Source of the DNA: Tubulanus polymorphus
Taxonomy: Eukaryota; Nemertea; Palaeonemertea; Tubulaniformes; Tubulanidae
Direction: 5' to 3'
Assembly: GCF_964204645.1 (NCBI RefSeq)
Contig: NC_134028.1
Span: 6,050,501 to 6,114,500 of the forward strand
DNA length: 64,000 nt
The first letter of the stretch is position 1, and each line of letters opens with the position of its first letter. Below the pieces are notes generated by a model. The model was not told the DNA's origin and made no database searches. It saw only the letters and a program-made list of their open reading frames with translations. A program made the position numbers and the translations under genes. Shown one piece after another: positions 2,807 through 64,000 of the stretch.

Positions 2807-3860
2807 TATTACGAGTAAAACAAACAGAACTGTGAGAAATTTGTTAACGATCGTAACTTCCAGTTTTAAAGTCGTTCGAATTTCGTTTAAATAACCTTAT
2901 TTCCATTTGGTCTAATACGGGTACAGAAATCGCGAAGTATTCCATTCAGAATATGATCCGGTACCTATCGACAACGTTTTTAACTTCAACGAATCAAAGG
3001 TCATTCGACGCCCGAGACAATAATTCAGTTTTCGTGCGATAAACAGAATCCGACTCGATGTCAATCTCGCGAGATACGAGTGAAAAGTTTTTTGTCGAGT
3101 TTTAAAAAGCGAAATGACAAGTTGCACTCTCGAACGTGTGCGGTGGGCTCTAAACGCTAGTCAATCGTTGGTAGTCCAGTACTCGTCTGCTATTCGCTGC
3201 TCGTTGAACACGTGGGTTGTAGCGTGTATTTCTGTTGATAAATGGAATACTCGTACATTAATCACAATACTCCGTGTACCTGGCTTAGCGTCGATATACC
3301 TAATACCTAATTCCCTAGAAACAATTCGCCTGAAAGACTTGGCGACGGACGAGTCTCGTGCGGTTTTGGTGCGCGATGAGAAATCGCGTCTCGTCTCTCG
3401 CGATCAATCAGCCGAACTTACGAACCGCAAATCATCGTCCAAACGCCCTGTTTTAGGAATAAACAGGCTTTGTAAGAATGATGCTACCGCGGCTCCAAAA
3501 CGTCTGCCTATAAGCAGGTCATAAAATTGTCGCAGAATTTTCAATAAGCTGATCGTATTAGGAGCCAAACGGTCTCTCATCAACAGCTCTTGACTTCGTT
3601 AGTGCGATTGTCGCGCTAGTTTATACATGTCCTCATTGTAAACATCGCATTCTGGTTATTGTGCACGGATACTGAAGAAGAGTCTCCTCCCGGCAGTGTG
3701 TCCGTCCATCGACAATCAAACCACAAATTCGACGTTCTTTCGAACAAACAAATACTAATACCTTTCGAAGGCATAAAGATATTCTAACAATCTACAAATT
3801 CAAATTTGCTTTCGTGCCGGTGGTGCCTATCTAGAAAGAAATGTGAAAAAAAATTCAAAA

Positions 3861-7122: not shown

Positions 7123-7255
7123 CAGACGAACTTGTGAAGTTTTACGTCTTTTAGTGAATATCACATTATGCTTTTGAGGGACGGGCACATTATTCGCTAC
7201 ACTGAAACTTTAAGACGCATCAACCACACGGATGGTTTGGTATAAAAGTTCAAGG

Positions 7256-29769: not shown

Positions 29770-32700
29770 TCATGGAGGTTCAAAGGCTGCTTTCAGAAAC
29801 TTACATAATTTGACAAGAGTATTTTTTGGGGAATTGAAAAGGGTTATCAGTTTATAATGACTAGGTCTTGTTAAACAGAATTGTGGTAAGCACTGTGATC
29901 TTAGAATTGTATATTCTGGACATTCAAATAAAAAGTGATATTCATTTCCAATTACATTTTGGTTGCATTTTAAACAAAATCTCTGGTTTTGAGGTGTATT
30001 ACTATATCTACCGGTTTCAATCGGTAGTTTGTGATTACTACATCTAAACCGGCACAATGTGCGTCGCAATGAAATAGGGAGGTCATGCAAATATGGTTCG
30101 AACTTTAGTTCAGTTTTGATCATAGAATACATTAGTCCTTTTGAGCTGTTACGGCAATCGGCCATCCATTTTTGCGTAAATTGGTCTTGAAGACGCTGTT
30201 TGATCAATTCACCAATAAGTTCAGGATTAACTCGCTCGTGATTTACCCAGTAGTTCATTAGACCACACTCTTCTAGGGTGCATTTTATATAACTTAACCA
30301 CTTGGTTGTTTTTCCATGGAGCAAGTGCATATTAAAAAGCATTTTATACATTTGACCCGATAATGTCGATACATCATTCCATAAAAGCTTTGCCCAGAAC
30401 TTAACCATTTTACTCTTGATGATTATCGCAAGCGGGGTTCTACCTAATTCACCATAGACCATATAATTTGGGGTAGACCGGTTTAGATGTAGTAAATATT
30501 TACAAAAACGCAGGTGGTATTTCTCTAAAATAGCAGTTGATTCGTAACCCCATATTTCACATGCATACGTAAGGATTGGTTCGACCATAGCATCAAAAAG
30601 TTCTAAACCTACGTCTGTATCTAAAGAGTACTGTTGGACCTTTTTCAAGACAAAAAATAGAGCTTTATTTGCACTTTCCCCAATTTTCTTTCGACATTTT
30701 GCAAATGTACCAGTGTAATTAAATAATATTCCTAAGTAGACAAATTCGTCAACAACTTCGACTTCATGTTGGTGTATAAAAAAAGTTGGTTTTAATCTTG
30801 TTTTCCTTTTTTGGAATATTAGTATTTTAGTCTTTGCTGGGTTGATTTTCAATTTCCATAGGTCACAATATTCAGACAAAGAATCAAGTGCTAATTGTAG
30901 GCCTTCCATCGAGTCAGATAAAATAAGGGTATCGTCTGCATACAAAAGCACTAAAAGTCTCAACCAGAAATTTACCTCATCATTATTATCAATACATACA
31001 CTTTGACAGCCTTTACTCAATAGAAAGTTTTCAAGGTCGTTTACATATAGACTAAAAAGTAGTGGGGATAGATTATCTCCCTGCTTGAGACCAATATGAC
31101 TATGAAAAAACTCGGAATTCCTTCCGTTAGTCGAAACACAACATTTGACGGACTTATACATATTTATTACGATATTGTAAAATTTACCTGTGATTCCGTG
31201 GTTATCTAATTTTTTCCAAAGTGCTTTTCTCCAGATTTTATCGAACGCTTTTTCATAATCAATAAATGCACAGTATAATTTGCGATTTTTACCCAAAAAC
31301 AAGTCAACAACTGATTTCAGTGTAAATATATGGTCAGTAACCCCATGTTTCTTACGGAAGCCGGCTTGTATAAGATTTAACAACTGGTTGCACTCTAGAA
31401 ATTCAGATAATCGACTGTTAACCAGACTAGTAAATAGTTTGCCTAGACAGCTCGTTAGTGAAATGCCCCGGTAGTTATCTGGGCAATTAGGATCCCCTTT
31501 GTTTTTAAAAAGTGGAATTATTGTTGATAGTCCCCAGTCGTGTGGGTAAATTCCTGAGTCCAAGATACGATTAAATAAGGTAGTGAGAACAGGTGATAAA
31601 TTATTTGCAACTGATTTAAGCATTTCGTTGATTATCTCATCGGGTCCGGGTGACTTGTTATTTTTTAGTTTTTTGATTGCATTTATAACCTCTTCTTCAG
31701 TTAGGTCTCTATTAAGGGCATCAAAATTCAACGTTGCAAAATCGAAATCGAAATGTCCCTCTGGGGGTTCAGTATTATCATAGTTGGGTTTTCTATTTAG
31801 TGTATGAAAATGGTTCACCAAGTCGTCAAAATTTGCTTCACATTGTGGTGCATTCGCCTTTTTGCGGAAGAACTTCCAGAAACTTTTAGGATCAGACTTC
31901 TTTAACATTCTAATTTCGTGATTAGTTCCTGTCGTGCGCGCATTTCGTTCACGATTAACCGATTGTTTATAGTTAGTGTATGCGTTGTTCAGAAATTGTT
32001 TAGTTTGTTCATTTTTGGTACTCTTATAGTGCCTTTTGGCACGCCTATATGCCCGGCGCTTTTCTATGACATTACGTGAATGGTGACGTGAGGCTTTATC
32101 ATTGTTGGTACGTTTACCTAGTAATCTTTCCCCCATTGTATCTAGAGCCGTTCGCTTTAACGTGTCACAGAGACGTTTGTTACAAGTGTTAGGTTCCGCC
32201 TGGTTTAATAAATCTTGCTGGATAATATCAATGCCCGTACTATTATGGATTTTATCCATGTAATCAACTATTTTAGTTTTGTTCCAATTTATCTTCCGTG
32301 ATCTATTAACAGGTTCTACGTTGGTGTCATTTATTATTGTTGATTTGCTAGAAATTTTGATTTCGATAGGGCAATGAACATCTGAAAATATTCGGTCGAA
32401 ACACAACACTTTAAAATGCACGATTTTTTCAAATAGGGGATAACTCGCTATGCCGTAATCGACCACATGAAAATTATCTGACTTAACGCATGTGTGTTTG
32501 CCCACATTTTTATCTTCACCGAGACGACCATTACATATAAATATAGTGTGTGATTTACAAAATTCGACTAATCTGTAACCATAATTGTTGATGCCGTTAT
32601 CGGAATTGGTTCTTTGTAGCATATCATTTACAGTTAACGAGCGAACAGCTGAAACGTCGTCTTGAAAAATTTCACTAAGGTCTAAATATTCTATATATCT

Positions 32701-33237
32701 GTCATCAATGGGCGTATAGTCTAAAAGGTTGCGAGTGTGAGCGTTGAAATCGCCACACAATAAGAGGTAATCATTGTCACAGTTATAAAGTGATATTAAT
32801 TCAGAATCTAAATCGTCGAACAATTCGACTCTTCCGTAGGTACTACTCTCCGGGGGGATATACACGGAACCTAAAAGTAGATCTTTATCTTCATTTAACA
32901 TTTTTTTATCAAATTTAAGCCAGTGAATTAGTTTACTCGTTTTCTTCTCCATGGTTACATATTTTTTCAGTACCTTTTTTATAAGAATGACAATTCCACC
33001 TGACCGTCTCACTGATAGATTTGTTCGGTTGTTCACATATGGGAAAAATCCAAGTTTTTCACTGAAGTCATTCAGCCAAAACTCGTCTGAACTGTCTAGT
33101 TTTGTCTCGGTGAGAATTACTATATCGTTACAGAGTAGAAGATCAATAAATTCATCGTATTTACTTTTCGATTTAAGCCCGCAAACATTTAAGTTCAACA
33201 GTGATATACTAGGGGTGTTTCCACTTTTCGTATCCAC
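29770..33237 (-). CDS. LINE ORF2: APE-type endonuclease and reverse transcriptase, 1155 aa
   Basis: This nicks target DNA and reverse-transcribes the element RNA. N-terminal AP-endonuclease-like domain (about 12-300): LNLNVCGLKSK (15-25), TETKLD (43-48), CGDFNAHT (161-168), and SDVHCPIEI (285-293) at the position where many elements have SDH, here with an extra Val. Reverse transcriptase (about 515-830): SPGPDEIINEML (529-540), CPDNYRGISLTS (585-596), QAGFRKKHG (624-632), FIDYEKAFD (658-666), GLKQGDNLSP (716-725) and catalytic YADD (766-769). The C-terminus has a Cys/His cluster CLKCNQ...YHFLFEC (about 1085-1105) as in several LINE clades. The single frame has no stop, so activity is plausible. 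It is preceded 6 bp upstream by ORF1, suggesting reinitiation or similar translational coupling. Confidence 0.95.
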   Translation of the reverse strand: MDTKSGNTPSISLLNLNVCGLKSKSKYDEFIDLLLCNDIVILTETKLDSSDEFWLNDFSEKLGFFPYVNNRTNLSVRRSGGIVILIKKVLKKYVTMEKKTSKLIHWLKFDKKMLNEDKDLLLGSVYIPPESSTYGRVELFDDLDSELISLYNCDNDYLLLCGDFNAHTRNLLDYTPIDDRYIEYLDLSEIFQDDVSAVRSLTVNDMLQRTNSDNGINNYGYRLVEFCKSHTIFICNGRLGEDKNVGKHTCVKSDNFHVVDYGIASYPLFEKIVHFKVLCFDRIFSDVHCPIEIKISSKSTIINDTNVEPVNRSRKINWNKTKIVDYMDKIHNSTGIDIIQQDLLNQAEPNTCNKRLCDTLKRTALDTMGERLLGKRTNNDKASRHHSRNVIEKRRAYRRAKRHYKSTKNEQTKQFLNNAYTNYKQSVNRERNARTTGTNHEIRMLKKSDPKSFWKFFRKKANAPQCEANFDDLVNHFHTLNRKPNYDNTEPPEGHFDFDFATLNFDALNRDLTEEEVINAIKKLKNNKSPGPDEIINEMLKSVANNLSPVLTTLFNRILDSGIYPHDWGLSTIIPLFKNKGDPNCPDNYRGISLTSCLGKLFTSLVNSRLSEFLECNQLLNLIQAGFRKKHGVTDHIFTLKSVVDLFLGKNRKLYCAFIDYEKAFDKIWRKALWKKLDNHGITGKFYNIVINMYKSVKCCVSTNGRNSEFFHSHIGLKQGDNLSPLLFSLYVNDLENFLLSKGCQSVCIDNNDEVNFWLRLLVLLYADDTLILSDSMEGLQLALDSLSEYCDLWKLKINPAKTKILIFQKRKTRLKPTFFIHQHEVEVVDEFVYLGILFNYTGTFAKCRKKIGESANKALFFVLKKVQQYSLDTDVGLELFDAMVEPILTYACEIWGYESTAILEKYHLRFCKYLLHLNRSTPNYMVYGELGRTPLAIIIKSKMVKFWAKLLWNDVSTLSGQMYKMLFNMHLLHGKTTKWLSYIKCTLEECGLMNYWVNHERVNPELIGELIKQRLQDQFTQKWMADCRNSSKGLMYSMIKTELKFEPYLHDLPISLRRTLCRFRCSNHKLPIETGRYSNTPQNQRFCLKCNQNVIGNEYHFLFECPEYTILRSQCLPQFCLTRPSHYKLITLFNSPKNTLVKLCKFLKAAFEPP

Positions 33238-33243
33238 CCAATC

Positions 33244-34002
33244 CTATTCCGCGTTCATCTCTAGTATTGCCCGTGCATTTTCTAAGGCGGCACTAATGCT
33301 ATCGGGTCCAGTGTTTTCAGTAATCACGCTGTCGGTCGATGTCGATGCTTTCGCTTTCTTAGGTACTTGTTTCACCCTCTCTCGTCCGCTATTATTTTGC
33401 TGCTGTTGTGTAGGGGTTTCTTCCGTGATATCTTCGGATGGGGGTCTCTCGCGTTTTTTGTCGTCTTTTCTTCTAGCTGTTTCTACCTGTCTGCTCGTAT
33501 TATCTTCTTTGGTGTTATAACGATTAGTATCGGTGTAGTTATTATCGGGCTCTTGGTTGTTGATCAATCGACCGTTGCTAGCCATTTTTAGGTTTTTTCC
33601 ACCAGGTATCATGTGTAATAGTTTACGGGTGTTAATTTCGTGAAGGCGCTCTATATGAGATTTGCTGCTTCTGAGCCATACATCTACGAATTTCCTGTTG
33701 TTTTTCAGTTTACGCTTAGCTCGCAGTATTTCGATTTTAATGTTTTTGTTCTCGAATGCTAACTTGACGAGTGGTGGTTCCTTGGTTGTTCGTTGTCTGA
33801 GTCTAATACACTTTACAATTTTAGGGGCAGGTTCTGCAAGCAGGGAGAGCATTTCGGTACATACATTGTTCAAGTTCTCGTTTTCTTCCATTCTGAGTCC
33901 AGAAATAATCACACAGTTGTCGGGGTCGTCTAGAGGATCTCGCTTTATTTTGGAATTCACTTCTATTTGCAATTCCATGCATAAATTTTCCATTTTTTTC
34001 AT
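33244..34002 (-). CDS. LINE ORF1: RNA-binding-type protein, 252 aa
   Basis: Begins MKKMENLCMELQIEVNSKIK, a probable short coiled coil. It is followed by an RRM-like region: CVIISGLRMEENENL (about 29-43), CIRLRQRTTKEPPLVKLAFE (about 85-104) and LRAKRKLKNNRKFVDVWL (about 112-129). This arrangement resembles ORF1 proteins of several LINE clades, which coat element RNA. The last 90 residues are Lys/Arg/Thr-rich and poorly conserved-looking. The stop lies 6 bp before the ORF2 start. A neighbouring frame (33821-34096 minus) is a shadow. Confidence 0.82.
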   Translation of the reverse strand: MKKMENLCMELQIEVNSKIKRDPLDDPDNCVIISGLRMEENENLNNVCTEMLSLLAEPAPKIVKCIRLRQRTTKEPPLVKLAFENKNIKIEILRAKRKLKNNRKFVDVWLRSSKSHIERLHEINTRKLLHMIPGGKNLKMASNGRLINNQEPDNNYTDTNRYNTKEDNTSRQVETARRKDDKKRERPPSEDITEETPTQQQQNNSGRERVKQVPKKAKASTSTDSVITENTGPDSISAALENARAILEMNAE

Positions 34003-35340
34003 GTCGGATTAGATGGGGAATGTGAAGCGTTGTCATTCTGGTTTTCGCGTTCTGTGTGAGGGCGTGTAGAGGGCAGTATATTCCTGGCTGGCTCATTGTC
34101 TGGTGTTCTCGGCATGTGAACGGCGACGGAGAGCTGAAAAGCTTTCGAACATTAGTTTTGTTCCGTACCAGGTTTTCATCGCTCTTCTCTTTTTTTTCAT
34201 TTCAGGACTCCCAAGAAGTTGAAGAAGAAGATGCTAGAAGGCGACTACAGAAGATGCCGAAAAAAGAATAGTGAACTCCGCAATCTTGAAAGTTAAGTTG
34301 ATACACATGTAAATTAGGATTAATGATGAAGAAATGTGTGACTACAAAATGTTTTTCTTTTTCTCAATTTCAGGTTCGACGAAACCCAAGAAGACAAAGA
34401 AGTGATTTTGAAAATTCAACCGCCGTCAAGAAAATCCTAGTCGCCACTGAACTTGGCAATCTTGAAAGTTAAGTTGATATACATGTAAATTACGATCTAT
34501 GATACAGAAAGGATTGTGTAATTACAGAATATCGTTCTATTCATTTCAGCTAAACTTAATCTGGAAAGGCCCAGCTTGATATAAACCTAAAATCTAAAAT
34601 CTACCCACCAGATCTTCAACCTTGTAATATAGATATTCCAAATCTCGATGTATTAAGATAGGCAGTCAACTTAATTGACCCCAATCAGTCGCTTGCCGGT
34701 TCAGACTGGTTGGAAGATTAATTGAATGAACCGGAACCGAAATTCCCAATTATGTGCTTGGATTTAAAGAAAAAAAAATTAATGTAAAATCGACAGCCGA
34801 TCACACAACTATATCTGTACTTCGATTTCCGATTTCGAAGTCAAACCCCGTTTCACTCTCAGTTGGTGTGGTGGGTTTGTAGTAACTGTCTACACCAAAC
34901 ACTGGAGTCTAAAAGATCTCCTAACGCCCCCTCACGAGTTCTCTCTCCTTTCACCCCAATAATCATCATTCTTCTGCTGTTTCTGATTCATATCGTTTAA
35001 TAATTGACTATTATCAAAATCAACGTATCGGTCCACATTGCTGATCTTTAATATGTTAATTATGATCCGTGATATTGGAAAGGAATTTTCCTCAAAAGGG
35101 TCTGCTCTTTTTTTCAGCTAAACTACTTATAATACGTCATAATATAGATTTCCAAAATCTCGATGTAATAAATTAGGCAGAAAAAAAAGTTAACCTTGAC
35201 ATATAGATATCCGAAATCTTGATGTACCGGTATTAAAATAGGCAGAAAAAAAGTTAATCTTGTAATATAGATATCCAAAATCTCGATGTAATAAATTAGC
35301 CAGAAAAAAAGTTAACCTTGTAATCACGATTGGTAGAACA

Positions 35341-47846: not shown

Positions 47847-48683
47847 ATGGTAAGTCTTAAAGGCGCCTTTTAGCGAATTAGTGTATAGATGGCCGGGTAT
47901 AAAACGGTCGTTCAAAAATTATAGATTAGCGAAAGTAAGATTACAAAACCTGTCAACGTATACTAGACTTTCCTTGATTAATTCATGAATCCTTGCGCTT
48001 ATTTTTTTTCTTTTTTTTCTTGTAATTCGTGATCGATTTTTATTGCTAATTCATCATTATTCACGATCATATACTTGTTATATACGGGTCTCATTATATC
48101 CATGAAAATATTAGGTTATTTGTCCAGATGATTGGAAAACTCTGCGGGCGACTTTCAAAGCGTTCGATTCGGACAGAAGTGGGATCCTGACGGTAGAAAA
48201 GGTAAAAAGAGTTTTCGAGAATGCTGGCGTTAAGGTAGCTGAAGATGAAATCGCAAAACAACTGGTGCTCATGGACAGAAATGAAGACGGAAAAGTTGAC
48301 ATTGAAGGTATGTTTTACACCACTATAGGATAAACGATGCAACACCTACGGCACCCAAGAGTGCATGCTGGTAGTAACCAGGGGCTAGTTGCACAGTCAA
48401 GGCTAAGGTTTGTGACCAGTCTAAGACCGTCTTGGCTATGAAGCCAATCTAACAACTTAAGACGAGTCTTAAGATTTAAGACCACTTTTGGACTTACTAT
48501 GCAACTGGGCCCAGGATTATTAGCCCCTAACGGCGGTTCTATACACGAGTGACAATTCGGCTTACGGCGTTATTGAGCAGAATTTCGAAAATATATTCCG
48601 TTATACTACGTTTAAGGTAAATTGTTAATAGAGTTTCAATTATAATTTCAGACTACATTCAAGCTATGTTAGATCCGGAGTGA
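47847..48683 (+). CDS. Small EF-hand calcium-binding protein, 75 aa
   Basis: Exons: 47847-47849 (only the ATG), 48115-48307, 48652-48683; 228 bp in total. Protein MVICPDDWKTLRATFKAF with two EF-hands: loop 1 DSDRSGILTVE (about 20-30) and loop 2 DRNEDGKVDIED (about 57-68), then YIQAMLDPE. Both loops keep the acidic Ca2+ ligands at positions 1, 3, 5 and 9; loop 2 ends in Asp rather than Glu at position 12. The length equals one calmodulin lobe. The start exon holding just ATG before an immediate GTAAGT donor is like that of calmodulin genes. It is the only way I found to give exon 2 an in-frame start, but it rests on the acceptor AATATTAG|GTTATT. AATAAA follows at 48849-48854. Confidence 0.75.
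48380..48515. mobile_element. Small inverted-repeat element in the EF-hand gene intron
   Basis: GGGGCTAGTTGCACAGTCAAG at the left and CTTACTATGCAACTGGGCCC at the right are imperfect terminal inverted repeats about 20 bp long. Inside, AAGACGAGTCTTAAGATTTA and similar short palindromes occur. Non-coding, MITE-like. Confidence 0.6.
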
Positions 48684-48848
48684 CCCGAGCCGCATATTCT
48701 TCCCTGAACGTGCCAAATGAAACAACTACCTCATATGCTTTTAATAGAGAAGCGATAGTGGATATATAATATCTATGTATGTTATTTTCTATGTTGAAAT
48801 AGCTCGGGAAATGAAAAGCTGTTTTTACTTATAAATGACTAATGTTTT

Positions 48849-48854: not shown

Positions 48855-48925
48855 TACGTAGATTCATTATGAATCTTTTATGAGATTTACTCTGCTATAT
48901 ACATGCATTTCGTTCTTTATTGCTT

Positions 48926-51095
48926 TAATTGGATCACATTTTGGTTTCTTTGGTGGCGTTAAAATCGAAGTCACGGGGTACCCGTACCTACTTTCTCATT
49001 CATGTCGATGGTGCCAGCTAAACAAATGGATTCCGATAACACTGACCTTTCTGAAAAGGACGAATTCTGCTTGTCACCTGAAAGTTCATCTATGACACCC
49101 CCAGGACTGGATGTCGTGGATGTCATACTGAGACATTTTTGATGGAATCAAAACAGTGGAACCTCGTTAATACGAATCTTGTGGCAAAAGTGAAATTGAT
49201 GTACTAAACGAGTTTCCAAGTATTATCCAAATCTGGATTGATGATATTAATATGTTGGCTAGGACATGCAGGAAATCATCGTGATAAACGGGTTTCGTCA
49301 TAATAAACAGAATCGTATTAACGAGGTACTACTGTATCAAAGAAATCTTCGGGCAAACAGATGGGCAGCGACTTACAAAAGCTAGTTCAATCAACTACAG
49401 AAAGCAATGAAATGTTACTGCATATATCCGGTACTTTATTTATAATTGCATTAGAATAGAATATAAAAGGTTCAAAAATAAGTAAAACACCAACAATGCA
49501 TATAACGATAATTATCAGTGGAATCTTATATATCCGCATTTCGATGGTGCCAGCGAAATCAAAATTCAATAATGATTCCTCCGACTGGGTGTCGTGGATG
49601 AATTGAAATGCACCATGCACTAGCGTCAAAATCTAAACACTTCCATGGTCGAGTGATATAGTCTCAATTACATCAGAATGTTCGTGACTTTTACAGCCCT
49701 AGGCTCGCACTGTCCCCCTCAACTTATGTATGTGTAAACTCTGTATACTAATGTAATGTCCCTATCTTATATCACATAGAAATATGTTATAATAATATCA
49801 TTAAAAGAATCGAATAGTCCTCATATGGGTTTTTTTCTATCGCAATCTCGTGACTGGCAACCATCCACGCGACAAACATTGACGTCACAGAAACAGATAC
49901 AAACCAGTAGACCTACTACAAAAAAGAAAATGTTTCCTTTGATATCGTGTTCGATATTGTGACCTACAGATTAATTCAAAAACTCTTCGCTTTACGGGTT
50001 ACTATTGTACGAACCTGAATAAGACATATGTAAAAAGTATACATATACACATGTGATACATGATGAAGTAAAACCTGCATATATTCCTCACCGAGCTCGC
50101 CAAAAACAACCTTGCTTGCTTCTTAAACACAGTTGACAAAAGATAATGTTTTTGCTAAGTTATTTGTTAATGTCAAAGTAGCCCGGTTAGTGAAAACCTG
50201 CTTTACTCTTTTTTTTCGATATAGCCTATAATTAGATTTTTATGACTTGAGATTCATCAAATATGTATTTCCTTTTTTATAACTTAAATTGGATCAAATT
50301 TCTTGTCTTTCTTGTGGTGTTTAGTCGGAAGTTACCTACTGTCATATCGATGGTACCAGTGAAATATGCAAATGGATTCCGGTGACACTGACTCTTCTGT
50401 AATGGACGAATTCTGTCTCTCCACGAAATCCAATTATGATACCTCCAGAACTGGATGCCGTGGATTTTATACTTAAAGATCCCTTTCTTGTGGAATTGAT
50501 ACATCACAGAAATCTTCGGACAAACAGATAAACAGAGACATTTTTAGAAAAATCTAGTCGGGTGAACTATAAAACATAGTACTAAGGTACTTTATTTAAA
50601 ATTGCATCCGAATAAGATATGAACAAGTAAAACATCAACACCGCATAGTATAACGATAATTCACCGCGGAATGTTATATAGCCATATCGACGGTGCCAGC
50701 GAAATATACAATTCGACGCCTTAAGGACTGAATGTCATGGATGTTAAAATACCTGAGCATTTTGATAGAATTTGATATCACAGAAATCTTCGGACTAACA
50801 AACTGAACAACTATTTACAAAAAATGTTAGTCGCATAAACTGAATAACACAATACCAGGTTACTGCATGTGCCCGGCAGCTTATATAGAATTGCACCAGA
50901 ATGATATAGAAAACGTTCAAAAATAAATAGACCATCAATAACGTCTATTAAAACGATAGTGTACAGCAAAACCTTGCAAAAAATCGGTAACAGGCTGATT
51001 ATGAAAACTAAATCATCAATCAATAATTTTAATAATAATAATTCGGATTAAAGCAAAACATGTATATCGATTCCATTTTTACACCTTATCTCTAT
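48926..51095. repeat. Degenerate roughly 300-bp repeats downstream of Shisa-like gene A
   Basis: Four units are marked by TCGATGGTGCCAGCGAAAT or a near variant at 49005, 49541, 50347 and 50687. Each is followed by a GACTGGATGTCGTGGATGT block and CACAGAAATCTTCGG-CAAACAG, and three also carry TTCAAAAATAAG-TAAAACA. Minus-strand frames in two units encode hydrophobic stretches (KIPLIIIVICIVGVLLIFE; DGLFIFERFLYHSGAI), but stops interrupt most. They may be decayed terminal exons or plain repeats. Confidence 0.6.
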
Positions 51096-51133
51096 TTACA
51101 CGATGAGTGATCATTGGACTGATATCGAGTAAT

Positions 51134-52698
51134 TTAACTATAGGTGTAAGCGGGAGGTGGGTATGCGGGATCATTTTGTGGAGCAAAGCCCGATGTTGGT
51201 CCGGGTGGTGGAAATGCTGGGGGATATTGGGATGGCGGTGGTGGATACATAGTTTTCTGTGGTGGATAAGTCGTCAGGCCGTATCCTTGTTGTGTGGCGT
51301 CGTTGTAGTTCGGTGGCGGAGGATATTGGCTGGTGGAAGCACTTCCCGCTGTTGTAGACACAACAACTGCCCGATTAGGTTGCACTAGTCCTGCAAAGAG
51401 AATATGTGAATTCATCTTTTGATAGAAAGATTTAATCACAAAAATTTTAATCAACGGCATGTTTTACATTTGCGAAAGGATATAATGGTGTTTTATTGAA
51501 ACTATCAACGTTATTATACTAGCGCTCTGGATACCGTTCCTGGGGTTATTGATAATGCATCTGAGTTTGAAGTGGTTGTTCTGCAATTAATTCGCGAAAA
51601 CGTCTAGAAGACGATGGCCGCTGGATTCACGCAGCGACGTCAGGAAATTAACAAACTTCACTTTTCAAATTAAAATGGAAGCTTATATAGTTCATATGGC
51701 ATTTCATATTACTCGTGATATCACAGTTATACATCATATCATTACATCCGATTCTGTGAACTATCAAATTTTCTTCCAGTTATATAAGCGACATTTTTCT
51801 CAAACTTTTGCAGAATAACCACTCCAAACGGATGTACCTTAATCTAGGAACTGTATCCCAAGCCCATCGGCGAGTGCCTGTATGATTAAAACCATTAAAA
51901 GTTCGTTCCATTGGTGTTATTGATGCCGTAACTGTGGGATAGGGTTCTCAATCAAATTCAATCAACAACCGTAAAACAAGAATTTTGATAATTATACTTA
52001 CTTCGCTGCCTGTTCTTTTTTGAGACGACCACAACCGGAATCACGATTAACAGTACTATGATGATGAACACCGATACACCTACGACAGGACCGATCCAAA
52101 ACAAATTGAGCCTGAATTGGCAAGAATAGTGACCCTCATTTCAAACAATCATTGCAAAAGATTATGGCCAATCTACATATCATGTTTTTCTTTATGCTAA
52201 CTTCAAAATTTAATCAGGTTTAAATCTTATGTATTTCAATTGACTTGATACGACGAATTACCCATAGATATAGAAAGAAATAGAATTCACGTCATTTTTT
52301 GCGAGCACAATTTCGAAAATGAAACTAAATTAAGAAAAGTTCTTTCGGGTACATTTAGACTGAATCCTTTAAGAAATACTTTAGAAAAAGGCTAAAAATA
52401 CAAATAAGAATAGGAAAAATAACAAAATAGGCCGGAAGAATAAAATCAGACATTAATTTTGATTGCCTAACCTTATCTACTTACGTCGTGGTCGTGGACG
52501 TTGATGAACTGGATTGATATTTGGAACAACTAGATTTGCTGACGTCGTAATAGTTGTCCGTCCAGTCGATGCCGCTTGATGAAATCGAAGAGCAACAGTA
52601 TTTAAATGTCTTTGACCCGCAACACTTATATGTACAATATTTCGACTCTCTGTAATAACCACTAGAACTACAATATGCGTAACACTTTCCCATCGCGT
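51134..52698 (-). CDS. Shisa/CYYR1-like single-pass membrane protein A (PPxY tail), start unresolved
   Basis: Exons (minus): 52698-52485 (cysteine-rich ectodomain), 52111-52002 (membrane segment), 51390-51134 (tail, ends in TAA). The ectodomain begins around MGKCYAYCSSSGYY and has paired cysteines (KCCGS, KYCCSS), then a Ser/Thr stalk. The membrane segment is VSVFIIIVLLIVIPVVVV, followed by basic SKKNRQR. The tail is Pro/Tyr-rich with two PPxY motifs (PPPPNY, PPPAY) and a run of YPPP repeats. This architecture is that of the Shisa/CYYR1/WBP1/VOPP1 group, whose PPxY motifs bind WW domains of NEDD4-type ligases. No signal peptide is visible; exon 1 appears to begin at an acceptor (GGCAAAG|ACGCG), so an upstream leader exon is expected but was not found. 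A near-copy lies at 56982-59244. Confidence 0.8.
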
Positions 52699-53224
52699 CT
52701 TTGCCAATTAATTGCCAAAAATTAGTAAGGAAATTGAAATGCACTATCCGCTGATATATAATCGTCAACTTAGAACGTAGAAATTCCTTGGTCTAGCGAA
52801 CGTCAGAATGTACGTGACTATTCAACCGCGAATAGATTATTCTCTGCTGATAAATAACGTCGAAAGAATGGAACGGTGATTCATGTGGGTTTTTTCTAGC
52901 GGGATCTCGTGACTGGCAACCGTCCATAAAACATAACAAACATTGTCGTCACAGAGAGATATTCAAACCAGTACTTCATAAAAGAAAATATTTCTTGATA
53001 TTGTGTTCGTTGGCGTTAATGTGACCTACAGATTATTTGAAAAGTAGCTATTCGCGTCACGGGTAACTTATTTTATGAACCTGAATAAGACATTTATATT
53101 GAAGTATACAAATAGACAAATAATATAAGCATCAAGATACAAGTAAGACATATACATATGGCAGATGTGAACTCAAACCATGGAATCAGTGGATCATGAA
53201 ACCAGTTGTATCGTATCCGTGTAA

Positions 53225-53500
53225 AGATTGGCCACATCACGACCTTTCAATTTTTGAAAAGGGACATTTCAGGTGAACAGATATGATATGATTGTTATGT
53301 CTCTAGATGAGTTTGCATCTCCGGCGAAAGATTGGTTTTGTTTGCTCATAATATACTGGGGAGATATTTGTCACGGCGTTGCCAACTTGAGCAAGGATGA
53401 TTATTTTAGATTTTAGTTTATCATATTTTTGAGTATCAGCACCAAATAACACTATAGATATCGAATCAATCAAATAGATGCAGAGACGATTACCCATATT
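53225..53500. other. Upstream flank of gene A; empty site for the copy-B LINE
   Basis: CACGACCTTTCAATTTTTGA (53238-53257) is uninterrupted here, whereas in copy B the same sequence is split by about 1.97 kb of LINE sequence (59663-61630). No exon is supported in this flank; the minus frame starting MGNRLCIYLIDSIS at 53497 is not preserved in copy B. Confidence 0.7.
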
Positions 53501-54189
53501 TCAAGATAAAAAACACAATCACAAACTCAACGTAACATCCCGCTACCAGCCTCATTATTTCCGTGATGATACATATGGTGGTTGCCACGGACTACTAAAG
53601 CCTACCTACTGAACAATAATGTAGCGGCCGCTGCAATGGATAATTTATTGACTTTGAATATAAATGTGATAACGCCTATATTTGCCCATTTCTATTCAAT
53701 TCTCTACTTATTACTCAATTCGTTCATTTATCGACTGATTTGTTTTGATTACAAGCTTCACATTCGATCTACTGGTTTCTCTACGCAGCATAGCTATGAA
53801 ATACAGTCAAAAAGCTGAGGTGATGATAGCGTAAGTCTTGCCACCGTCTTGTGCAGCCGAGTGTGAGCAATGATTTTGTTTTAAATTTCGCGTTTTTTTC
53901 ACACTAAGCTCGCGAGCCTTTCCAAACATTCAAATGGAATATTCGAGGATCACAACTTAGTCTTTGAATCCCTTGAGAGGAATAGCGAAAGTACCGGTGA
54001 GACGCCAAACGATTTGGCAGGAGATTCATAGTTTATTAGTTCTCTGATAGGAGCACATCGCAAGCGTCTCACATTGTAAATTTTCTCCCAGATGTTACCC
54101 CTTCACATTTATCGGGTTACTTAGTCAGTTTGTAAAATCCCGTTATCAATGCTTCATTATAATTAAAACGATATCGTTCTTATCGACTG

Positions 54190-54340
54190 TTAAAGAGTTT
54201 CTGATAATATTTCTCCGTGATAGGAAGATTGTTCTGGGTGGTATTCTCGAATTTGGTAAGCTGTGTCGATTATTGAATAAGCCAATGCTGAATACGAGTG
54301 CACAAGTCAGAATAGGCTACATGGGAACCCACCATAAAAA
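54190..54340 (-). pseudogene. Decayed Shisa-like tail exon (paralogue C)
   Basis: Minus-strand frame ALAYSIIDTAYQIREYHPEQ parallels the intact tail exon at 63769-63920 (PPAYGTGDTTYQNQIYPPKQ). The PPAY motif is degraded to ALAY, and a TGA lies a few codons upstream. The DNA on both sides also aligns with the copy-B right end, so this is its duplicated but broken counterpart. Confidence 0.5.
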
Positions 54341-54556
54341 AAAGATCAACGAAATATTCTTGTGAAGTTAAGTTTACGACGTTGAATAAAGATGAATAAT
54401 GAAGACTCAGTAACTGCGCTTGTGACTGAACATTTCGATAAGATTTTTTATCATCATCATTTTTATCATCAATATGGACAAATTTACAAAATACTAACAG
54501 ATCACCAAAGCAAAACCTCCGTTAATATTCCATTGTTCGGTGATTATTTTCATTAC

Positions 54557-54657
54557 GTGTGAGCAACAATATTTATACGTGTTATACTCGCCACAATTCT
54601 GTGATGGAATGGTTGTCGTACCATCCGGCCCGCAGTATGAATAGCACCACATCTTAT
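54557..54657 (-). pseudogene. Third Shisa-like ectodomain exon (paralogue C), partial or decayed
   Basis: After the acceptor GATTGCAG the minus strand encodes MWCYSYCGPDGTTTIPSQN, CGEYNTYKYCCSH. This matches the ectodomain layout of genes A and B (KCYAYCSSSG, SKTFKYCCSS) with cysteines kept, and the acceptor is at the same phase (two bases before the ATG codon row). The downstream stalk is missing: the frame either ends at a possible GTAATG donor or runs into a stop. With the broken tail at 54190-54340 this looks like a non-functional gene. Confidence 0.55.
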
Positions 54658-54779
54658 CTGCAATCTGAATTTATCACCATACCTTTTCATATAGTATCGA
54701 AATCTAAAACTTTTCATATAGTATCGATATCTAAAAATATCAATTTTAATAAGTTAAAACTCACGCATGTATCTTCATA

Positions 54780-56940
54780 ATTGCTTTAATTGGATCACAT
54801 TTTGGTTTCTTTGGTGGCGTTAAAATCGAAGTCACGGGGTACCCGTACCTACTTTCTCATTCATGTCGATGGTGCCAGCTAAACAAATGGATTCCGATAA
54901 CACTGACCTTTCTGAAAAGGACGAATTCTGCTTGTCACCTGAAAGTTCATCTATGACACCCCCATGACTGGATGTCGTGGATGTCATACTGAGACATTTT
55001 TGATGGAATCAAAACAGTGGAATCTCGTTAATACGAATCTTGTGGCAAAAGTGAAATTGCTGTACTAAACGGGTTTCCAAGTATTATCCAAATCTGGATT
55101 GATATTAATATGATGGCTAGGACATGCAGGATATCATCGTGATAAACGGGTTTCGTCATAATAAACAGAATCGTATTAACGACGTTCAACTGTATCAAAG
55201 AAATCTTCCGGCAAACAGGTGAACAGCGACTTACAAAAGCTAGTTCAATCAACTACAGAAAGCAATGAAATGTTACTGCATATATCCCGTACTTTATTTA
55301 TAATTGCATTAGAATAGAATATAAAAAGTTCAAAAATAAGTAAAACACCAACAATGCATATAACGATAATTATCAGTGGAATCTTATATATCCGCATTTC
55401 GATGGTGCCAGCGAAATCAAAATTCAATAATGACTCCTCCGACTGGGTGTCGTGGATGAATTGAAATGCACTATGCACTAGCGTCAAAGTCTAAAAACTT
55501 CCATGGTCGAGTGATATAGTCTCAATTACATCAGAATGTTCGTGACTTTTACAGCCCTAGGCTCGCACTGTCTCCCTCAACGTATGTATGTATAAACTCT
55601 GTATACTTATGTAATGTCCCAATCTTATATCACATAGAAATATGTTATATCAATATCATTAAAAGAATCGAATAGTCCTCATTTGGGTTTTTTCTATCGA
55701 AATCTCGTGACTGGCAACTATCTACGCGACAAACATTGACGTCACAGAAACAGATACAAACCAGTAGACCTACTACAAAAACGAAAATGTTTCCCTTGAT
55801 ATTGTGTTCGATATTGTGACCTACAGATTCTTTGAAAAACGAACTCTTCGCTTTACGGGTTACTATTGTACGAACCTGAAAAAGACATTTGTAAAAAGTA
55901 TACATATACACATGTGATACATGATAAAGTAAAACCTGCATATATTCCTCACCGAGCTCGCCAAAACTACCTTGCATGCTTCTTAAACACAGAACTGTTG
56001 GCGAAAGATAATGTTTTTGCTAAGTTATTTTTTAATGTCAAAGTAGCCCGGTTAAATCTGCTTTACTCTTAAATGAATTTTTCGATATAGCCTATAATTA
56101 GATTTTTATGACTTGAGATTCATCAAATATGTATTTCCTTTTTTATAACTTAAATTGGATCAAATTTCTTGTCTTTCTTGTGGTGTTTAGTCGGAAGTTA
56201 CCTACTGTCATATCGATGGTACCAGTGAAATATGCAAATGGATTCCGGTGACTCTTGACTCTTCTGTAATGGACGAATTCTGTCTCTCCACAAAATCCAA
56301 TTATGACACCTCCAGAACTGGATGCCGTGGATTTTATACTTAAAGATCCCTTTCTTGTGGAATTAATACATCACAGAAATCTTCGGACAAACGGATAAAC
56401 AGAGACATTTTTAGAAAAATCTAGTCGGGTGAACTATAAAACATAGTACTAAGGTACTTATTTGAAATTGCATTCGAATAAGATATGAATAAGTAAAACA
56501 GCAACAACGCATAGTATAACGATAATCTACGGCGGAATGTTATATAGCCATATCGACGGTTCCAGCGAAATATACAATTCGAAACCTTAAGGACTGAATG
56601 TCATGGATGTTAATACTTTGGCATTTTGATGGAATTTGATATCACAGAAATCTTCGGACTAACAAACTAAAAAACTATTCACAAAAGTTAGTCGGATAAA
56701 CTGAATAACACAATACCAGGTTACTGCATGTGCCCGGTATCTTATATAGAATTGCACCAGAATGATATAGAAAACGTTCAAAAATAAATAGACCATCAAT
56801 AACGATAGTTTACAGCAAAACCTTCTAAAAATCGGTAACAGACTGATTATGAAAACTAAATCGGCAATCAATAATTTTTCATGACTATAATTCGGATAAA
56901 AGGAAACCATGTACATCGATTATATTTTTACACTAATCTC
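54780..56940. repeat. Degenerate roughly 300-bp repeats downstream of Shisa-like gene B
   Basis: Copy-B counterpart of 48926-51095, nearly base for base, with the GATGGTGCCAGC-type marker at about 54869, 55401, 56216 and 56557. Small indels and substitutions distinguish it from copy A. Confidence 0.7.
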
Positions 56941-56981
56941 TATTTACACGATGAGTGATCATTGGACTGATATCGAGTAAT

Positions 56982-59244
56982 TTAACTATAGGTGTAAGCG
57001 GGAGGTGGGTATGCGGGATCATTTTGTGGAGCAAAGCCCGATGTTGGTCCGGGTGGTGGAAATGCTGGGGGATATTGGGATGGCGGTGGTGGATACATAG
57101 TTTTCTGTGGTGGATAAGTCGTCAGGCCGTATCCTTGTTGTGTGATGTCGTTGTAGTTCGGTGGCGGAGGATATTGGCTGGTGGAAGCACTTCTCGCTGT
57201 TGTAGACACAACAACTGCCCGATTAGGTTGCACTAGTCCTGCAAAGAGAATATGTGAATTCATCTTCTGATAGAAAGATTTAATCACATAAATTTTAATC
57301 GATGGCATGTTTTACATTTGCGAAAGGATATAATGGTGTTTTATTGAAACTATCAACGTTATTATACTAGCGCTCTGGATACCATTCCTGGGGTTATTGA
57401 TAATGCATCTGAGTTTGAAGTGGTTGTTCCGCAATTAATTCGCGAAAATGTCTAGCTTCATAGACTTTTCAAAAGACGATGGCCGCTGGATTCACGCAGT
57501 GACGTCAGGAAATTAACAAACTTCACTTTTCAAATTAAAATGGAAGCTTATATTGTTCATATGACATTCCATATTACTCGTGATATCACAGTTATACATC
57601 ATATCATTACATCCGATTCTGTGAACTATCAAATTGTCTTCCAGTTATATAAGCGACATTCTTCTCAAACTATGGCAGAATTACCACTCCAAACGGATGT
57701 ACATTAATCCAGGAAGAAAGCCACTAAATATTTGGATGGATATATGGAAGCTGTGTGTACTGGAGTGTGTAATGGGTAGTGTAGTGTGATCTGTGTGCAT
57801 TTTGGTGGCCAGCACACAGATCACATTGTTCATTGGGGTTTAGTCCATAACTCGCGAGATTTTCAACAACACGGGAGTAACGTGTAATAAATGATGACTT
57901 GAATTGCATGACTACCTACCACCCCTCATTATTGTTGGAAAACTAAACGTTCCGCACTGACTAAAAATTAGTAATAATAATCAATAACATTTTAGAAATG
58001 GCCAGAATTTTAACTTAGGTTCTATCTCATTTTTATTTTACAATTGCGATTGGTATAATTTTCTTTTAAACGGCCGTTAAGGCTTGATGTTTCGTCTGCA
58101 ATTCACTGCAAATAGTTACGCAACTACGCACATTTCAGTGTTTTTGGCAGCTGTACACTCAATCGGCACCGTTCGTGACTAGCTTCACTGCGGAATTATC
58201 ATTAATTAACATCGCCATATCACATCATCAACTTATATTGTGCCTTAAAACCCTAACAGCCGAAATAATTGAAATGCACACACGATTTCTATCATTGAAA
58301 ATTGAGAGAGTGGCCATGTTTGTGTTTGCTGCTTCGCGTAAATCCCGCGCGGTGGCGCAACCGCGCGGAGTGGGGCCGATACGTCTAGGAACTGTATCCC
58401 AAGCCCATCGGCGAGTGCCTGCATGATTATAACCATTAAAAATTCGTTCCGTTGGTGTTATTGATGCCGTAACTGTGGAACAGGGTTTACAAAAAAATTC
58501 AATCCACAACCGTAAAACAAGAATTTTGATAATTATACTTACTTCGCTGCCTGTTCCTTTTTGAGACGACCACAACCGGAATCACGATTAACAGTACTAT
58601 GATGATGAGCACCGATGCACCTATGACATGACCGAGCCAAGAATAATTGATCCTGAATTGGCAAGAATAGTTATCCTCATTTCAAACAATCATTGCAAAA
58701 GATTATGGCCAATGGACATATGATGTTTTTCTTTATACTAACAAAATTAAATCGGGTTTAATCTTGTGTATTTCAATTGACTTGATACGACGAATTACCC
58801 ATAGATATAGAAAGAAATAGAATTCACGTCATTTTTTGCGAGCACAATTTCGAAAATGAAACTAAATTAAGAAAAGTTCTTTCGGGTACATTTAGACTGA
58901 ATCCTTTAAGAAATACTTTAGAAAAAGGCTAAACATACAAATAAGAATAGGAAAAATAACAAAATAGGCCGGATTGAAAAGAAGAATAAAATCAGACATT
59001 AATTTTGATTGCCTAACCTTATCTACTTACGTCGTGGTCGTGGACGTTGATGAACTGGATTGATATTTGGAACAACTAGATTTGCTGACATCGTAAAAGT
59101 TGTCCGTCCAGTCGAGGGCGCTTTGTGAAAACGAATAGCAACAGTATTTAAATGTCTTAAACCCGCAGCAGTCGTATGGACATAATTTCGACGCTGTGTA
59201 ATAACCACTAGAACTACAATATGCGTAACACTTTCCCATCGCGT
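56982..59244 (-). CDS. Shisa/CYYR1-like single-pass membrane protein B (PPxY tail), start unresolved
   Basis: Exons (minus): 59244-59031 (ectodomain), 58652-58543 (membrane segment), 57238-56982 (tail). Exon lengths and phases are the same as in gene A. The ectodomain differs at 12 residues clustered in 15-51 (for example YTASKLCPYDCC versus YRESKYCTYKCC), with all cysteines conserved. The membrane segment is ASVLIIIVLLIVIPVVVV and differs from A mainly in its outer half. The tail has only two amino-acid changes (A to I, G to R) and keeps both PPxY motifs. Intron 2 is longer than in A because of the insertion at 57711-58383. As in A, a leader exon with a signal peptide is expected upstream but not seen. 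Open frame, conserved splice sites and conserved cysteines argue that it is functional. Confidence 0.8.
57711..58383. other. 673-bp insertion in intron 2 of gene B
   Basis: Copy A reads directly from GGATGTACCTTAAT into CTAGGAACTGTATCCC, while copy B carries this extra block. Its right part is GC-rich (CCCGCGCGGTGGCGC). A minus frame contains GLNPNEQCDLCAGHQNAH, which has a Cys-x2-Cys-x2-His spacing but no family I recognise. No clear target-site duplication or terminal repeats could be read. Confidence 0.6.
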
Positions 59245-59662
59245 CTTTGCCAATTAATTGCCAAAAATTAGTAAGGAAATTGAAATGCACTATCCGCTGA
59301 TATATAATCGTCAACTTAGGACGTACAACTTCCTTGGTCTAGCGAGCGTCAGAATGTACGTGACAATTCAACCGCGAATAGATTATTCTCTGCTCATAAA
59401 TAACGTCGAAAGAACTGGACGGTGATTCATGCGGGTTTTTTTCTAGCAGGATCTCGTGACTGGCAACCGTCACAGAGAGATATTCAAACCACTACTTCAT
59501 AAAAGAAAATATTTCTTGATATTGTGTTCGTTGGCGTTAATGACCTATAGATTATTCGAAAAGTAGCTATTTGCGTCACGGGTAACTTATGAACCCGGAT
59601 AAGACATTTATAAGAAACCAGTTGTTTCTTATCCGTGTAAACATTGGGCACTCCACGACCTT

Positions 59663-61630
59663 GGGGTGTTGGCATTATTTATATTATAGGGTAAAGGAAA
59701 ACGTGAAGCCCCTGACAACTATAGAGGGATTACCCTCCTTAGTTGTCTCAGCAAACTTTTTACTAATATTTTGAATCAGCGCCTAAATCAATATTTAGAA
59801 GTGAATAATATACTCTTAAAGAACCAGGCCGGTTTTAAAAAGGAACATGGTATTTTAGATCATATTTTTTCCCTGAAGAGTGTAATAGATCTGTTTTTTG
59901 CAAATGGGAAAAAAATCATATTGCATGTTTATAGATTTCCAAAAATGTTTCGACACTATTAACCGCAAAGCCCTGTGACACAAACTAATAACCTCGGGAA
60001 TTACTGGTAAAATTCTCAACGTAATCTATAACATATACGAAATTGCAAAGTCTTGTGTTAAAGTTAATGGGGAGACATCTGACTTTTTTGAATCTCTTAC
60101 GGGCTTAAGACAGGGAGAAAACCTCTCTCCGATAGTATTCTCTATATTTGTTAAAGACATATCGTTAATGACATATAGAACAATATCTATTAGTAAGACG
60201 AAGGTTGCCAGAGTATCGATTTTCTTAGACCTGACAACTCTATATGGTTTAAACGTTTAGTACTACTTTATGCTGATGATACAGTGTTACTGGCCGAGAA
60301 CCCAGAGAACCTTCAGATATATTAGCAAGTAAAATGGCTGAATACTGTCAGAAATGGCACCTAAAAATTAACGAAGGTTATAGTTTTTGAGAAAAGGAAA
60401 GGCCGCCGCCGACCAAATATAATCATAAACGGCCATCAGATCGAGGTAGTTGTGAATTTTAGGTATTTAGGCATTATTTTTAATAAAAATGGTGAATTCA
60501 CCCTCTGTAGAAAATCTATCGCAGAGCACGCAAACAAGGCGTTGTTTTATGTCCTAAATAAAGTTCAAGAGCATGCCCTCGGAATTGATATTGCAGTACA
60601 ATCATATGACAGTATGGTACTTCCTATTCTTACCTTCGGATGTGAAATTTGGGGATTTGAAAATGTGACTATCCTAGAAAGGATTCAATTGACATTTTTT
60701 AAGTACATTTTAAAGCTAAAGAAGTCAACTCCTACCATTTTCGTGTATGGAGAGTTAGGGCGTTTTCCACTTGAAATTATTATAGAAATTAGATTAATTA
60801 AGTTCTGGGCTAAACTGCGCAATAGCAATAAATTATCATCTGAAATATCGCATGCAATACTAAAGTCTGTGGAGCGTGGTTCCCACCATGACTGGTTAGT
60901 TTTTATCCAAAACACGCTTATAACAAACGGTATTGGACATTTTTGGTACGATAAAACCCCGCATAACCCCGATTATGTAGCGCAAAGTCTGTCACTACGA
61001 TTAAAGGACCAATTTATTCAATATTGGAGGTATCAATGTAATATTTCTAGTATTGCTGAATCATACAAGATATTCAAAACAGAATGGGGATTTGAAACTT
61101 ATCTTACTCAATTGTCAAACGATATAAGGATAACCCTTTGTAGATTTCGATGTTCGAACCACCGTTTAGTAAAACCGTGTCCCACGTGTGAACAGACTTT
61201 GCACAAAATGTAATATGTGAGTTGTCTGTGACAAATTTCATTTTATATCTGTTTGTCCGTTTTTTGCCAATTTCCGTCGATACCTTTTTAGCTCGTACTT
61301 TGTAGATAACCCACAATTACATAAATTTGTAGACTTATTAAGATCATCAGATGTAAAACTCCGAAAGCTTGCCTTATTTATACGAAGATGCCTCATACAT
61401 TTTGAATGATATTGCTGTAACATTTTTTTCGCACATTAACTGTGTAGTGTAATTTTGGTTATATATTAGCCTTGGTTATAACCTATCGTCGATCCAAAAT
61501 ACAACATAATTTTGCTTCTGATATTGTCCTGATATTGTATTGATATTGTATTGTATTGACATTCATGTTGTATTGTCTTTTTGCTCTAAGCAAATGTACT
61601 TTTGTGAGCAATAAAATATTCTATATTCTA
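59663..61630 (+). pseudogene. 5'-truncated, decayed LINE copy
   Basis: Starts within the reverse-transcriptase region (PDNYRGITLLSCLSKLF, NQAGFKKEHGILDHIFSLKS) and continues, with frameshifts and stops, through a recognisable LLYADDTVLL segment (about 60266) to a 253-codon open C-terminal part (60452-61213) containing FRYLGIIFNKNGEFTLCRKS and LCRFRCSNHR. It ends with AATAAAATATTCTATATTCT. It belongs to the same broad clade as the intact element at 29431-34130 but is clearly divergent from it. The insertion interrupts CACGACCTT/TCAATTTTTG, which is continuous in copy A. Confidence 0.88.
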
Positions 61631-62720: not shown

Positions 62721-63075
62721 ATAGGGAAAATAACCCATATTTCAAGATTTTAAAAAAAGTAGTGTTAAACACAACCACAAAAGTAGAATTTCAAGTTCAC
62801 GTTACCAACCTCACTTATTTTCCGTGATGACATATTCACACGGACTACTAAAGGCTACCTCCTAAATAAATGTAGCGACTACTGCAATGAATTAACTTCA
62901 TGTGATAAGGTGGTCTATATCTGCCTATTTCTCAATTCTCTATTAATCATTCGTTCATTTATCGAGTGATTTGTTTTTGATTGCCAACCTCATTTATGAT
63001 CTACTGGTTTCTCTAGACAGCACAGGTATTAAGTACAGTATATAAGCCGAGGTGATGATGTCGTGAAGAGCGTTA

Positions 63076-63413
63076 AGGCGGGCGTAGGTCGGCCTTGCGA
63101 CGGCTTACGACTCACTGCGACGCGACTCACTGCGACCGCCAGCGACGATCGCGTCGCAACGACTCACCGACCTACGCTACTTTGCGACTGCCAGCGACGG
63201 GTTGCGACTGCCAGCGACGCCAGTCGCAATGAGTCGCACATGTTCTACTTTCTGCGACGCGATGCGACCGTCGCAACCGACCTGCGTGCTGTTGCGACTG
63301 GCAGCAACTAGTCGCACACAGTCGCTGACAGCCGCATCACAACCGACTTGCGCGGCCACCTGTGACGCAACGCGACGATCGCGTCGGATCGCAAGGCCGA
63401 CCTACGCCCGGCT
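63076..63413. mobile_element. GC-rich MITE with 25-bp terminal inverted repeats and TTA target duplication
   Basis: Starts AGGCGGGCGTAGGTCGGCCTTGCGA and ends with its reverse complement, one mismatch (ends CTACGCCCGGCT). It is flanked by TTA at 63073-63075 and 63414-63416. Copy A has the unoccupied sequence GCGTAAGTCTTGC at 53829-53841, differing by one base from the expected GCGTTAGTCTTGC. The interior is a dense series of TGCGACTGCCAGCGAC-type repeats, GC-rich and unlike its surroundings. A 3-bp TWA duplication is typical of PIF/Harbinger transposons, so a Harbinger-mobilised MITE is likely. The open frames across it are repeat artefacts. Confidence 0.85.
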
Positions 63414-63768
63414 TTAGTCTTGCAACCGCCTTGTGTTACATCCGGATGCAAGAAATGAGTTTCTTTAGATACCAGGTTTAACACTAAGCTCATGAGCCTT
63501 TCCGAACGTTCATATGGAATATTCTAGGATCGCAACTTTTGGACCCTTTGAAAAGAATAGCGAAGGTACCGATGAGACACCAAACGATTTGGAGATTCAT
63601 AGTTTATTAGTTCTTTGTAAAATAGATAGAAAAGCGTACATTGTCAATTTCATTTTTCTCAGATGTCACCCCTTCACATCGAAGGATTCAGCGGGTTACT
63701 TATTCACTTTGTATAATCAATTTTTAGTACTGCTTCATTTTAGTTAACGATATCGTCCTTATCGACCG

Positions 63769-63920
63769 TTAAACTGATTGTTTTGGAGGGTATATTTGAT
63801 TTTGATAAGTGGTGTCACCCGTACCATAAGCCGGTGGTAGCAGTCCGGGGGCACTTGGGACAGCGGCATTTGTGATTCGTGTATACGAACTTCGGTTATG
63901 AGACATAGCTTGTATTTGCG
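63769..63920 (-). CDS. Shisa-like protein D, terminal tail exon (gene runs off the window)
   Basis: After the acceptor TTTTTTTCAG at 63922/63921 the minus strand encodes 49 residues, QIQAMSHNRSSYTRITNAAV then PSAPGLLPPAYGTG and YQNQIYPPKQSV, and a TAA. The PPAY motif, the Pro/Tyr-rich character and the exon entry phase (one base carried over) are the same as in the tail exons of genes A and B, but the sequence is quite different. It should belong to a further family member whose membrane and ectodomain exons lie beyond 64000. The duplicated counterpart at 54190-54340 is broken. Confidence 0.6.
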
Positions 63921-64000
63921 CTGAAAAAAAAGCCAAAAATGCATCACATCTCAATCATCTGATCGTGTGACTGGGAAATTTCCTTCAGTGTAATTACTAG

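Follow-up and report, generated by a model that had tools for sequence, protein, structure and literature searches.

Introduction

In the human red and green opsin genes, gene conversion has evened out the introns, while a peak of divergence in exon 5 is attributed to selection that restricts conversion there (PMC3924837, a review). The pattern called ASSET in viperid three-finger toxins consists of short exon segments that differ between cysteine-rich paralogues whose introns are similar and whose cysteines are kept (PMC2474615). Here we describe two tandem genes, A and B, in a window of 64,000 nucleotides from the nemertean Tubulanus polymorphus (assembly GCF_964204645.1, contig NC_134028.1, positions 6,050,501 to 6,114,500), whose ectodomain exons differ sharply over a short core that is bordered on both sides by nearly identical sequence. 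Like opsin exon 5, the pair combines flanking introns of low divergence with a steep peak confined to one exon of adjacent duplicates; unlike it, the pair is known from one species and has no known functional residues, and selection is here only plausible (PMC3924837). The ASSET toxins share with A and B the differing exon segment, the similar introns and the constant cysteines, but A and B show point changes without indels, form one pair only and encode no toxin (PMC2474615).

Judged by their sequence, A and B look like Shisa-like (STMC6-type) single-pass PPxY adaptors. STMC6 proteins are single-pass proteins with the cysteine order C*C*CC*CC and PY motifs, and have roles in trafficking and degradation, and a motif of four aromatic residues marks their membrane segment (PMC5578492); CYYR1 binds WWP1 through its PPxY motif (PMC11399591). 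With Shisa, CYYR1, WBP1 and VOPP1 the two genes share the C*C*CC*CC order, one membrane helix and a PPxY tail (PMC5578492, PMC11399591). They differ from Shisa in falling below the cut-off of the Pfam family Shisa_N and in having two additional cysteines (C8 and C55), which give the full order C*C*C*CC*CC*C and not the C*C*CC*C*CC*C of zebrafish Shisa; vertebrate Shisa proteins have a signal peptide (PMC10531659). Among listed papers on Shisa-like proteins (15 of 208, 15 of 33 and 12 of 99), titles and abstract openings report no divergence peak of this kind, and neither these nor the papers cited above mention a recognition role for these adaptors.

Results

Both genes lie on the minus strand and are built from three exons. 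The ectodomain exon of gene A (52485-52698) has an open frame, splice sites, eight cysteines and an ATG at 52693; it is joined to a transmembrane exon (52002-52111, with splice sites and a hydrophobic stretch) and a proline-rich tail exon (51134-51390). The corresponding exons of gene B are at 59031-59244, 58543-58652 and 56982-57238, and the tails of both genes contain PPNY and PPAY. Counted from the ATG within the ectodomain exon each protein has 191 residues; translation may begin at this ATG or in an upstream exon.

A preliminary description of this DNA, made without database searches, had singled out the ectodomain exon as evolving far faster than the adjacent introns, and its counts hold. 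The exon has 214 bases in both genes, 19 of which differ: 16 base changes replace 12 codons, three codons change silently, and all eight cysteines are retained. Every difference falls within a core at 52544-52650 (minus strand, 107 bases), which spans codons 15-50 from the ATG; the 19 changes are point changes without indels and amount to a divergence of about 18%. On one side of the core a near-identical tract (52231-52543) takes in the intron and the 3' end of the ectodomain exon and shows one substitution and one 9-bp indel, as had been reported for the adjoining intron; on the other, the 5' end of the exon and the sequence upstream of it (52652-52773) are identical (0/122 differences). Each low-divergence tract reaches into the exon and stops there, so that A and B also agree at the silent sites of either exon end. 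Together these flanks differ at 1 of 435 aligned bases, a count that excludes the mismatch at 52544 assigned to the core, against 152/3259 in the other noncoding columns of the surrounding duplicated block (p 7e-8); their noncoding columns alone (1/329) are likewise below the rest of the block (p 5e-6). The peak consists of homogenised flanks at 1/435 set against an exon core at 19/107. The membrane exons differ at 10 of 110 bases, nine of them within the outer 43, and the tail exons at 3 of 257, both in line with the earlier counts.

Although the core window was picked after inspection of the data, it is the densest 107-base window among the 4,169 columns of the block, and none of 5,000 permutations equalled it. 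When the noncoding mismatch pattern was resampled by block bootstrap, 19 differences were reached anywhere in 0.3-0.5% of 3,000 runs. With circular shifts, 52544-52650 was matched or exceeded in 1 of 4169 positions, a window of the same length one base on in 11/4169, and the whole ectodomain exon in 143/4169.

The core sits within a duplicated block whose first copy spans 48913-53246 and whose second spans 54774-59662, the latter with an additional insert of about 670 bp near 57715-58384. The copies differ at 185 of 4169 aligned columns, and at 153 of 3588 noncoding columns (4.3%). The mismatches are spread unevenly over the block: their density remains over-dispersed when the core is taken out (p 0.0004), and a hidden Markov model with three states divides the block into tracts of 0.4%, 4.4% and 13.5% divergence, with the high-divergence segments totalling 455 of 4169 columns, some of them noncoding. 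One such noncoding patch, at 51011-51090, differs at 13 of 79 positions, part of it in A/T-rich repeats where the alignment is uncertain; another, at 52067-52232, differs at 18 of 162 and covers the outer portion of the membrane exon. The preliminary description had overlooked that the block is patchy throughout, in noncoding DNA as well.

Homology between the two array units continues past 53246, at 13/179 differences over 53246-53436 and at 20-22% thereafter, across an insertion at 59.66-61.63 kb on the B side. This older flank differs at 222 of 1076 positions (21%), counted over three of the four stretches that BLAST could align; the excluded stretch is 53246-53436, which is transitional, and the third stretch counted (54300-54709) includes the ectodomain exon of genes C and D. 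In divergence the core is indistinguishable from the older flank (19/107 against 222/1076, p 0.53) and from the flank's two wholly intergenic stretches (142/679, p 0.52), and the comparison with the older flank gives the same result by class of change (silent, p 0.45-0.80; replacement, p 0.67). Such a step between block and flank is not what one duplication event of uniform age would leave, and it suggests conversion within an older array. A falsely duplicated haplotype is an unlikely explanation, given that the array around the copies has neighbours that are 20% diverged.

Several insertions and repeats lie in or beside the block. The insertion that breaks the homology of the A and B units (59663-61630) looks retroelement-like by eye and contains a 282-codon frame without a Pfam match. 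The intron between the membrane and tail exons of A holds a dispersed repeat (51529-51900), which B shares, there split by the insert of about 670 bp (57715-58384) that A lacks. A search with the gene body gave at least 86 matches; beyond A itself and two pieces of B, the matches listed fall in this repeat. Many short repeated GCGAC-like words were seen by eye at 63060-63415 and are absent from the homologous stretch on the A side.

At the codon level, seven regions were compared by Nei-Gojobori counts with Fisher tests (on rounded numbers of silent and replacement sites) and five by codon-model likelihood with kappa 1.92 or 1, all p-values for coding regions being nominal and uncorrected. For the ectodomain the counts are 15.5 replacement against 3.5 silent changes, which gives 0.105 replacement changes per site (dN) and 0.077 silent changes per site (dS), with a one-sided Fisher p of 0.47 (range 0.47-0.54). 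The ratio of the two rates as estimated by likelihood (omega) is 1.53 with kappa 1.92 (p 0.49) or 1.29 with kappa 1 (p 0.69) for the ectodomain, and 1.57 (p 0.48) or 1.27 (p 0.72) for the core. For this one pair the ectodomain ratio cannot be distinguished from 1 in any of these tests, because the core has raised silent divergence as well, in excess of that in the flanks (p 0.0005). The membrane exon has 10 replacement changes and no silent ones (p 0.041; 0.006-0.044 across tests) and an unbounded omega (p 0.006, 0.009), the tail exon has 3 and none (p 0.37), and ectodomain and membrane exons together give an omega of 3.1 or 2.7 (p 0.04, 0.075). Over the whole coding sequence there are 28.5 replacement and 3.5 silent changes (dN 0.071, dS 0.024, p 0.048), with an omega of 3.4 or 3.1 (p 0.019, 0.033). 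Replacement changes in the ectodomain and membrane exons (25/242) are more frequent than noncoding changes in the block (153/3588, p 1e-4). There is, then, a weak signal of selection in the membrane exon and in the whole coding sequence.

Genes A and B belong to an array whose order, by rising coordinates, is A, C, B, D, E. The ectodomain-exon region of gene C (54480-54700, minus strand, read from sequence) is 67% identical to D. Where gene C corresponds to the membrane exon a stop is read, which suggests that C is a pseudogene. Genes D and E have open frames and lie wholly or mostly past the end of the window: D is at 63769-64000 (minus strand), with its tail exon at 63769-63920, and its membrane and ectodomain exons are just past the window end, at 1092-1195 and 1356-1536 of L007. 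The stretch at 48.9-50.05 kb is about 70-75% similar to the flanks of A and may be a relic of another copy. D and E form an older pair, with a dN of 0.227 and a dS of 0.332 overall (omega about 0.7). Over the first 63 coding bases their ectodomain exons show a single difference, against 28 in the remaining 118 (p 2e-5), and these 63 bases also stand apart from the D/E introns (77/304, p 1e-6); over the same stretch pseudogene C differs from D and from E at 5 of 63 positions each. This patch suggests repeated short conversion in the ectodomain exons of the family.

The best Pfam match of A and B is Shisa_N, at 18.3 and 18.7 bits and thus below the cut-off of 22 bits, which their relatives D (25.3 bits) and F (33.0 bits, on another contig) exceed. 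In the genome analysed (267.8 Mb in 77 contigs) 11 places match Shisa_N with an E value of 1 or less; genes A, B, D and E are among them, and seven of the 11 score above the cut-off. Besides A and B, the array holds two further intact relatives (D and E) and one pseudogene (C). Across seven family exons nine residues are invariant (C4, C8, C20, C24, C25, G26, K31, C33 and C34), and C4, C20, C24C25 and C33C34, which are cysteine in all seven aligned exons, make up the C*C*CC*CC order in A and B. Both genes have, by reading, a single hydrophobic exon followed by the tail with PY motifs, of which D has PPAY and E none. A simple scan upstream of A, B, D and E gave no convincing phase-1 signal-peptide exon; gene F has a candidate signal exon, seen by eye. 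A sequence search of solved structures returned no match at E up to 1, and an AlphaFold2 model of the ectodomain from seven sequences was not used (mean predicted local distance difference test score 46.8, predicted template modelling score 0.23). A weak match at C6:21368235 (E 2.29) looked unrelated when read by eye and was set aside.

Elsewhere in the window, an EF-hand gene on the plus strand (47850-48690, limits by eye; EF-hand_7, 36.8 bits at 48130-48309) lies directly to the left of the array. A non-LTR (long terminal repeat) retroelement on the minus strand (29770-34008) has an open frame of 1157 codons for an endonuclease and a reverse transcriptase (RVT_1, 119.8 bits), adjoined by a 254-codon frame without a Pfam match. 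An open frame at 2495-2896 (minus strand) has no Pfam match; by eye it resembles a TGF-beta-type propeptide. Past the window, L007 contains an exact 175-base repeat at 7131-7483, its two starts 178 bases apart.

Discussion

We consider it probable, on balance, that the ectodomain core is the older part and that gene conversion has levelled the sequence flanking it, with selection plausibly guarding that core. A and B would be tandem copies in an array of Shisa-like adaptor genes, in which conversion between loci has homogenised most of a block of 4-5 kb, reaching the DNA to either side of the core most recently. The 107-bp core would have kept, or regained, the level of divergence of the older array, and the outcome would be a divergence peak within duplicates that otherwise evolve in concert. 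The aside in the preliminary description that conversion may have helped to even out the flanks is very likely right. Its contrast between exon and intron is real, and much of it comes from flanks that have fallen below the average of the block.

Its reading of diversifying selection is weakened. As an explanation in its own right, that reading would have the block duplicated once and recently, about 4% divergence ago, followed by fast diversifying change of the ectodomain and outer membrane helix. An omega of about 3 for the whole coding sequence, ten replacement and no silent changes in the membrane exon, and a replacement rate above the noncoding rate of the block all speak for it. The preliminary description had itself tied the claim to an ectodomain ratio above 1, however, and the ratio found (1.3-1.6, not distinguishable from 1) goes against the ectodomain part of that claim, while the raised silent changes of the core, flanks too identical for a block of one age, sites just past the block that are already 20-22% diverged, and the omega below 1 of the older pair D/E argue further against it, so that we regard this course of events as quite unlikely. 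It is also unlikely, if less so, that the core is simply what conversion tracts missed by chance, with no selection on which part stayed different. Such an outcome is consistent with the high-divergence tracts in noncoding DNA (51011-51090 and part of 52067-52232) and with ectodomain omegas for A/B and D/E of about 1.5 or less, which do not exceed 1 by test where one was made; it fits less well with a core that is the densest window of the block, exceeds the bootstrapped noncoding patches and is hardly ever equalled by circular shifts, for a window that was picked with the data in view. The sharp edges of the core inside the exon, between near-identical sides, recall the exon segment switching of viperid three-finger toxins (PMC2474615), by which one copy would have imported its core from a third paralogue, now lost or unassembled. 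We hold this to be very improbable, as the DNA of the ectodomain exon has its matches in A and B alone, and when the gene body and the upstream sequence were searched, the matches listed were dispersed repeats and array flanks, with no third gene copy among them; a third A/B-like gene as donor was rejected on these grounds.

The best account remains a mosaic produced by conversion, with a divergence peak that selection perhaps protects; several observations weigh against it. It rests on two sequences and on patchiness, part of which lies in the A/T-rich repeats noted above, and an unconverted island within a converted tract requires two events or patchy repair. Constraint could bear on the near-identical intron tract, and protein constraint could likewise account for the conserved exon start of D and E, though no silent difference occurs there. 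By circular shift the whole coding sequence (958/4169 shifts as high) and the membrane exon alone (415/4169) are unremarkable. Finally, constraint on the core is not significant: one of the eight positions invariant in five other family exons is replaced (I42L, p 0.16).

Selection may plausibly disfavour homogenisation of the core, which would keep the ectodomains of A and B different. In the working that we propose for the protein, the ectodomain and outer membrane helix would choose a partner membrane protein, the PPxY tail would recruit NEDD4-type WW-domain ubiquitin ligases, and the partner would be steered through endosomes. The immune or recognition role first proposed for A and B is speculative; the proteins resemble PPxY adaptors that the cited papers place in trafficking and degradation. 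We think it improbable, if worth stating, that the array forms a recognition family undergoing rapid change, its adaptor tails and gene structure held uniform by conversion, while a varied pool of outer cores on a cysteine scaffold, and of outer membrane helices, is maintained by selection and reshuffled among loci and alleles. If selection does guard the core, the core points to the part of Shisa-like adaptors that binds their partners. The case also shows how homogenised introns can, for the most part, account for an exon that seems to outpace them, which is a trap for neutral yardsticks based on introns.

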